Of a DNA stretch of 64,000 nucleotides, positions 29,580-60,630 are shown piece by piece. Below the pieces are notes generated by a model. That model was not told where the DNA came from, did not search any database, and saw nothing but the letters and a program-made list of their open reading frames with translations. Where the stretch lies: the NCBI GenBank assembly GCA_028752905.1, contig JAQNBH010000013.1, positions 27,599,239-27,663,238 of the forward strand, given 5' to 3'. The position numbers were made by a program, and so were the translations under genes. Origin of the DNA: Cladorhizidae sp. MBARI D1340-BT2 (lineage: Eukaryota; Porifera; Demospongiae; Poecilosclerida; Cladorhizidae). Position 1 is the stretch's first letter. Each line of letters begins with the position of its first letter.

Positions 29580-29755
29580 TTATGCAGAGCTCTCCATTAT
29601 CTCATTCTCCTTGCTCTTTGGCTGTCCTCCTTTGTCTGTTGAGGAACTGGTAAGATCTGGTCTGACGTAACACTCTGAGTCCACCCCAAACCTCAGAGGG
29701 TTACTCACCACTGGCACCTCATGGACCTCGGCTTCACTAGCATTGGCAGAGGGTT
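29580..29755 (-). CDS. Right receptor: C-terminal tail exon
   Basis: A 176-nt exon with acceptor CTTATATATAG encodes PSANASEAEVHEVPVVSNPL, RFGVDSECYVRPDLTSSSTD and ends ENEIMESSA then TAA. Its phase matches the end of the kinase exon (GAA G|AA), which makes the link credible although 7 kb lie between them. The tail has one tyrosine (ECYVRP), a possible SH2/PTB docking site by analogy with other RTKs. Confidence 0.8.

Positions 29756-60630: not shown

Follow-up and report, generated by a model that had tools for sequence, protein, structure and literature searches.

Receptors that join a full plexin ectodomain to a tyrosine kinase have been described as Met-LP in Lophotrochozoa and Echinodermata, with two proposed origins (Junqueira Alves et al. 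2019, PMC6374515). The same source traces Met to an origin within Bilateria and Met-LP to two bilaterian lineages. From Amphimedon, the single sponge it covers, it lists transmembrane semaphorins and plexins, four of which (Plexin-A1 to -A4) have short intracellular regions, but neither Met nor Met-LP. An earlier note on the DNA analysed here had known of no named receptor with the layout in question, a view overturned by the naming of the Met-LP receptor tyrosine kinases (RTKs) (PMC6374515). For sponges, no description of a plexin-type ectodomain with a tyrosine kinase (plexin-TK) was found among the matches listed in open-licence full text, a body of literature outside which most subscription papers and preprints lie.

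The 64,000-nucleotide stretch of demosponge DNA analysed here (the window) holds a gene that, as read from a gene model and, for the sema N-terminus, from its tandem paralogue, shares with Met-LP a complete plexin ectodomain, one transmembrane (TM) segment and a tyrosine kinase. Met-LP receptors differ in being bilaterian, in kinases that group with MET (all three compared) and in ectodomains that lie among bilaterian plexins, whereas the sponge genes do neither. MET and RON also combine sema, PSI, IPT, TM and tyrosine kinase, but their kinases belong to another clade and those checked have a single PSI motif, as the earlier note had held, against three in the sponge gene. Plexins share the ectodomain and carry a RasGAP domain (PF08337) inside, in contrast to the kinase of the sponge gene. 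Amongst the proteins recovered, two were clear Met-LP receptors (P0199 from Lingula and P0208 from Amphiura) and one, P0189 from Potamilus, was a probable one, with one PSI by Pfam and two PSI motifs by pattern. We consider it likely that the demosponge receptor consists of a plexin ectodomain and TM segment joined to the juxtamembrane (JM) segment and kinase of a demosponge RTK, independently of bilaterian Met and Met-LP.

Gene model and domains of the right receptor gene

The receptor gene (the right gene of a tandem pair, minus strand) was assembled by eye from six-frame translations, after which each junction was checked. The predicted model comprises 24 exons from 60630 to a stop codon at 29580 and encodes 1,280 aa (Table 1); every one of the 23 junctions follows the GT..AG rule and preserves phase, and the reading frame stays open as far as the stop. 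The encoded order is sema C-terminus, PSI1, TIG1, PSI2, TIG2, PSI3, IPT3-6, one TM, JM, tyrosine kinase and tail. Both boundaries given in the earlier note were recovered exactly, and its claim of a three-PSI plexin-type ectodomain followed by a TM and a kinase agrees with the gene model and with Pfam. It had counted 26 exons with consistent phases, of which the phases stand and the count becomes 24 within the window; its reading "from sema" is right in that sema is present, although for this gene the window holds no more than roughly its final 114 residues.

Table 1. Coordinates of the exons of the two tandem genes and of a relic exon copy, with the basis of each assignment
Feature	Positions	Strand	Basis or remark
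E1-E2: sema C-terminal part	60630-60415, 60355-60230	-	Splice sites, phases; same layout in L2-L3; sema profile match
E3: PSI1 and start of TIG1	60177-59935	-	Pfam PSI; motif CSSCVGSSNPLCGWC
E4-E5: TIG1	58806-58620, 58553-58460	-	Splice sites, phase; conservation in relatives
E6: PSI2, motif CSICLQTVNGCGWC	58391-58286	-	Pfam, pattern, conservation in relatives
E7-E9: TIG2	58221-58093, 58031-57933, 57878-57779	-	Pfam TIG_2 E 0.0016, under cut-off
E10: PSI3, IPT3, start of IPT4	57721-57127	-	Pfam PSI and TIG
E11-E13: IPT4, IPT5, start of IPT6	57065-56889, 56819-56741, 56681-56460	-	Pfam, splice sites, conservation
E14: IPT6, GQNLDSVVENEILVLVGRKPCSLLSVTNSK	51638-51549	-	Top score among 19 phase-compatible candidates
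E15: IPT6	48548-48489	-	Splice sites and phase; weakly conserved
E16: IPT6 end, one TM helix and a basic stop-transfer stretch; phase 1 at its end	48044-47867	-	Hydropathy 3.6
E17: juxtamembrane, sponge-RTK type by eye; ends in glycine loop	46719-46627	-	Phase continues at 41872
E18-E20: tyrosine kinase domain	41872-41780, 39881-39664, 39597-39485	-	Pfam PF07714 E 4.9e-78 (E18-E23 together)
E21-E23: tyrosine kinase domain	38109-37944, 37594-37452, 36976-36837	-	PF07714; catalytic motifs
E24: C-terminal tail and stop codon	29755-29580	-	Phase and splice site
L1: N-terminal 317 aa with most of the sema propeller; by eye, a signal-peptide-like start	18616-17666	-	
L2-L5: sema C-terminus, PSI1, TIG1	1958-1743, 1671-1546, 1493-1251, 226-43	-	
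Relic copy of E14 (IPT6 exon)	19426-19303	-	83% identical, donor GT changed; upstream of left gene

Pfam, run on a version of the right protein that still lacked the 30-aa IPT6 exon, identified PSI in three stretches, three TIG domains and the tyrosine kinase, with TIG_2 under the cut-off. The domain search proposed in the earlier note recovered PSI2 and PSI3. PF08337 was absent from the right protein by Pfam, with the kinase in its place. Additionally, hydropathy gave one strong TM and the kinase has a complete motif set, in line with the "one TM and a full kinase" noted before: GEGQFGIV, VAVK, the alpha-C Glu context, HRDLAARN, DFG and APE are intact in the sequence, and the model has two activation-loop tyrosines, Y1092 and Y1096. 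The kinase looks intact and may be active.

When the model was compared exon by exon with ten sponge relatives, the PSI1, TIG1, PSI2, PSI3/IPT and kinase exons were well conserved, as were E7-E8. Conservation was weak in E1, E2, E9 (4-12 identities per 32-33), E15, the TM exon, the JM exon (5-6 identities per 25-31) and the tail; E14 had 10-15 identities per 29-30. The weakest call of the model is E24, which is weakly conserved and preceded by a 7-kb intron. The choice of the E4 donor is supported by the left paralogue, since an in-frame stop lies there just past the same donor. A possible exon at about 59283-59146, in the gap between PSI1 and TIG1, was rejected, as E3 and E4 join in phase without it and the DNA match to the left paralogue breaks there. 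A hydrophobic stretch near 56360-56290 was also rejected as the TM, being repeat-like and out of frame with the chain.

From the end of the IPT array (56460) to the kinase-core exon (41872) there are 14.6 kb holding E14-E17, and because these exons lie in phase between array and kinase they tie the two halves together. The large introns with transposon-type sequence, and the four plexins of Amphimedon whose intracellular regions are short (PMC6374515), could suggest two adjacent genes, a tailless plexin of the Plexin-A1 to -A4 kind and an RTK, misjoined here and in other annotations. However, the exon encoding the end of IPT6 and the TM is followed by an in-phase JM exon that ends in the glycine loop, the model has one strong TM, and both halves lie within one alignment in 7/7 Halichondria models compared, so that misjoining is very unlikely. 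No further exon candidate emerged from a scan of the interval from TM to JM; a small JM-region exon with unusual splice sites may have been missed, as the JM of the relatives is longer.

Related receptors in other demosponges

The best match to the ectodomain (n=65) came from Halichondria panicea, a protein in which a kinase is combined with PSI and TIG domains (39% identity over 97%). Amongst 26 chosen proteins compared, all seven Halichondria models gave a single alignment across ectodomain, TM and kinase at 38-41% identity (one of them, P0097, stops inside the kinase), and the Ephydatia muelleri models P0091, P0089 and P0085 gave a single alignment from residues 94-115 onward at 35-38%. The counterparts in both genera therefore span 35-41% identity over the main alignment. 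Halichondria belongs to Suberitida and Ephydatia to Spongillida, which places relatives in two other demosponge orders. Judged from these relatives, which are predicted proteins, the plexin-TK layout is a demosponge family.

The overall layout is shared by the Ephydatia muelleri model EMCRGX_G027105 and, with a variable PSI count, by Halichondria panicea models named "plexin-A2-like", "plexin-B1-like" and "hepatocyte growth factor receptor-like", annotation names that reflect one half only. By pattern, the CGWC-type PSI motif occurs three times in four of the seven Halichondria models, whereas P0074 and P0078 have two copies and P0075 has one; in Ephydatia it occurs three times in P0089, P0090 and P0091 and twice in P0085. 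Pfam counted three PSI domains in P0091 and one in P0075, with two each for P0001, P0085 and P0097.

Five further Ephydatia models (P0094, P0100, P0106, P0127 and P0132) have one PSI motif each by pattern and a Met-like layout; Pfam, applied to P0106 alone of the five, likewise counts a single PSI there. Two of them, P0106 and P0132, align with the right protein at residues 2-178 and again from 629 onward, skipping the PSI2-PSI3 part. In the kinase tree the five form one branch (100/100) next to the long Ephydatia forms, and some of them may be the same gene under two annotations. If these one-PSI models are correct, the Met-like layout arose a second time.

In two other Halichondria proteins, P0070 and P0071, the kinase is closely related and a PSI3/TIG part is present, but the N-terminal parts differ, which suggests more ectodomain shuffling.

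Phylogeny of the kinase and ectodomain halves

The kinase tree comprised 86 rows, namely the window protein and 85 of the 261 proteins returned; the kinase match lists covered the best 120 of 4,771 and the best 120 of 2,973. It omits most unnamed metagenome matches, most vertebrate MET/RON, the truncated protein P0161, and P0066-P0069 (high bits, 32-35% identical). All 18 sponge plexin-TK kinases fell inside a 41-row demosponge clade (100/100) that includes SRCR, Frizzled, sushi and Ig receptors; these RTKs share with the plexin-TK genes the kinase and, by eye, the JM type, and differ in their ectodomains. MET, RON and the three Met-LP rows formed a separate group (90/76). Forcing the sponge plexin-TK kinases, along with two Halichondria relatives that bear TIG domains, into one group with MET/Met-LP was rejected (dlnL 152, AU p 0.00019), and the same constraint with 12 of the 86 rows removed (long-branched or unnamed) gave dlnL 139 and AU p 1.7e-57. 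With those 12 rows removed, all sponge RTK rows appeared as one group at only 54/57.

Chelicerate proteins named as HGF-receptor-like were also observed: P0180, P0182 and P0187 lie inside the MET group of the kinase tree, and P0196, P0198 and P0201 were among the matches listed. In contrast, PMC6374515 gives no Met for Ecdysozoa.

The ectodomain tree had 26 rows, with the partial P0082 left out; long branches and uneven composition were flagged in it, and its finer order is unsure. The top non-kinase match to the ectodomain was Geodia barretti Plexin-A4 (P0002), which has the RasGAP domain PF08337 inside, and this partial plexin, the sole non-bilaterian RasGAP plexin among the 26 rows, grouped with the sponge plexin-TK ectodomains at 100/100. 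Forcing the sponge plexin-TK and Met-LP ectodomains together was rejected (dlnL 200, AU p 3.75e-5). The three Met-LP rows were not one group: Amphiura Met-LP joined the plexins of Asterias (100/99), and the probable Potamilus Met-LP joined those of Mya (99/97), the latter a placement flagged as long branches meeting.

These trees, which the earlier note had proposed as a check, place the sponge genes outside MET/Met-LP in the kinase half and outside Met-LP in the ectodomain half, and bear on the two options it had offered, an intermediate between plexins and Met-family kinases or an independent domain swap. Under the former, plexin-TK would predate the split of sponges and bilaterians, and Met/Met-LP and the sponge genes would be orthologous, as the shared layout and the adjoining of the MET and sponge RTK clades in the kinase tree (weak support, 91/56) might suggest. 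Nevertheless, both halves reject the joining of sponge plexin-TK with Met-LP, and the Amphiura and the probable Potamilus Met-LP ectodomains lie with the plexins of Asterias and Mya, respectively, which leaves orthology very unlikely. Because both halves reject grouping with Met-LP, the independent swap is the option that the trees uphold.

Within the independent demosponge origin, the number of fusions was also considered. The plexin-TK kinases and the two TIG-bearing relatives as one clade were rejected (dlnL 50, p 0.0013), and Halichondria sushi/Ig-type kinases sit among the plexin-TK kinases. The lack of a single plexin-TK kinase clade calls for ectodomains that were swapped later, for gene conversion, or for a fusion that took place more than once. 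Several demosponge fusions, or repeated kinase replacement through gene conversion, would fit this pattern as well as the single clade formed by 18 of the 21 Halichondria kinase rows regardless of ectodomain. However, the kinase tree needs a minimum of three label changes, a number equally compatible with a single gain plus two losses, and monophyly of the plexin-TK ectodomains was neither established nor rejected (p 0.465). Several fusions or replacements are therefore possible but rather unlikely against one fusion followed by ectodomain swaps.

In the favoured fusion of plexin and demosponge RTK, the shift from plexin-like to RTK-like sequence would lie near the phase-1 intron between the TM exon (ending at 47867) and the JM exon (starting at 46719), and the phase of this intron is consistent with exon shuffling. 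The JM segment resembles sponge RTKs by eye; the position of the breakpoint is approximate because the JM exon aligns poorly. In plexins and RTKs, a dimeric ligand gathers sema-headed receptors and an inner kinase signals by trans-phosphorylation. By analogy, we infer the ligand, dimerisation, activity and output of the sponge receptor: a ligand, most likely a sponge semaphorin, would bind the sema head and pair two receptors, the paired kinases would trans-phosphorylate Y1092/Y1096, and phosphotyrosine-binding effectors would be recruited, replacing the RasGAP output of plexins. Such a ligand class exists in demosponges, since Amphimedon has transmembrane semaphorins (PMC6374515).

We lean slightly towards a plexin-to-Met route of the demosponges' own, in which a kinase was taken up near the phase-1 intron, tandem duplication then raised the number of genes, some of the kinases became attached to other ectodomains, and an Ephydatia branch lost PSI2/PSI3 and neighbouring modules to reach the one-PSI layout. 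If so, plexin ectodomains recruited kinases at least twice on the present trees, once in animals without neurons, and more often still on the 2019 reading (PMC6374515). The same layout with different ancestry in the demosponge family would make a semaphorin-type sensor joined to a tyrosine kinase a repeated solution. A nerveless animal also offers a direct test of semaphorin-to-phosphotyrosine signalling.

The left paralogue, the 5' end and mobile elements

The left paralogue (18616-43, minus strand) lies in tandem with the right gene and reads in the same direction; it is incomplete at the start of the window, and its exons match those of the right gene wherever both are visible. The two proteins are identical at 226 of 256 aa, with dS 0.12 and dN/dS 0.50 over the 256 shared codons, and DNA identity is 86-87% around L2-L5 and 86% out to the window edge. 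Because the duplication is collinear to this edge, the first exon of the right gene, with about 317 residues that include the signal peptide, should be located just beyond 64000.

The sema assignment draws on structure and profile comparisons, as the Pfam Sema model matched neither of the two window proteins nor P0001. An AlphaFold model of L1, built from 15 sequences with a mean pLDDT of 64, returned as its best 21 PDB matches only plexin or plexin-semaphorin structures, at TM-scores of about 0.4-0.55. A profile of ten sponge sema regions matched one of seven bilaterian plexin sema regions with prob 99.8, part of which reflects PSI, as the rows extend into PSI1 on both sides.

The right gene could also be read as a decaying, functionless duplicate, given introns filled with transposons, a 5' exon beyond the window edge, and a relic copy of E14 nearby, left over from a copy that was lost or rearranged. 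Against this stand a frame open across 24 exons, intact catalytic motifs and the dN/dS of the two paralogues, and we regard decay as highly improbable.

Transposon-like sequence at 9817-16539 and 61010-64000 occupies the large first intron and was duplicated along with the gene. Further elements on the plus strand are a DDE_Tnp_1_7 transposase (3911-4321), a zinc-finger ORF (5604-6176), an integrase H2C2 (21697-22143) and a reverse-transcriptase match below the cut-off (34625-35074). Low-complexity runs at 27301-27648, 31277-31639 and 36321-36662 read as poly-Ile/Leu/Thr ORFs. On the minus strand, 45823-43447 holds ORFs, of which the two scanned had no Pfam match above the cut-off.
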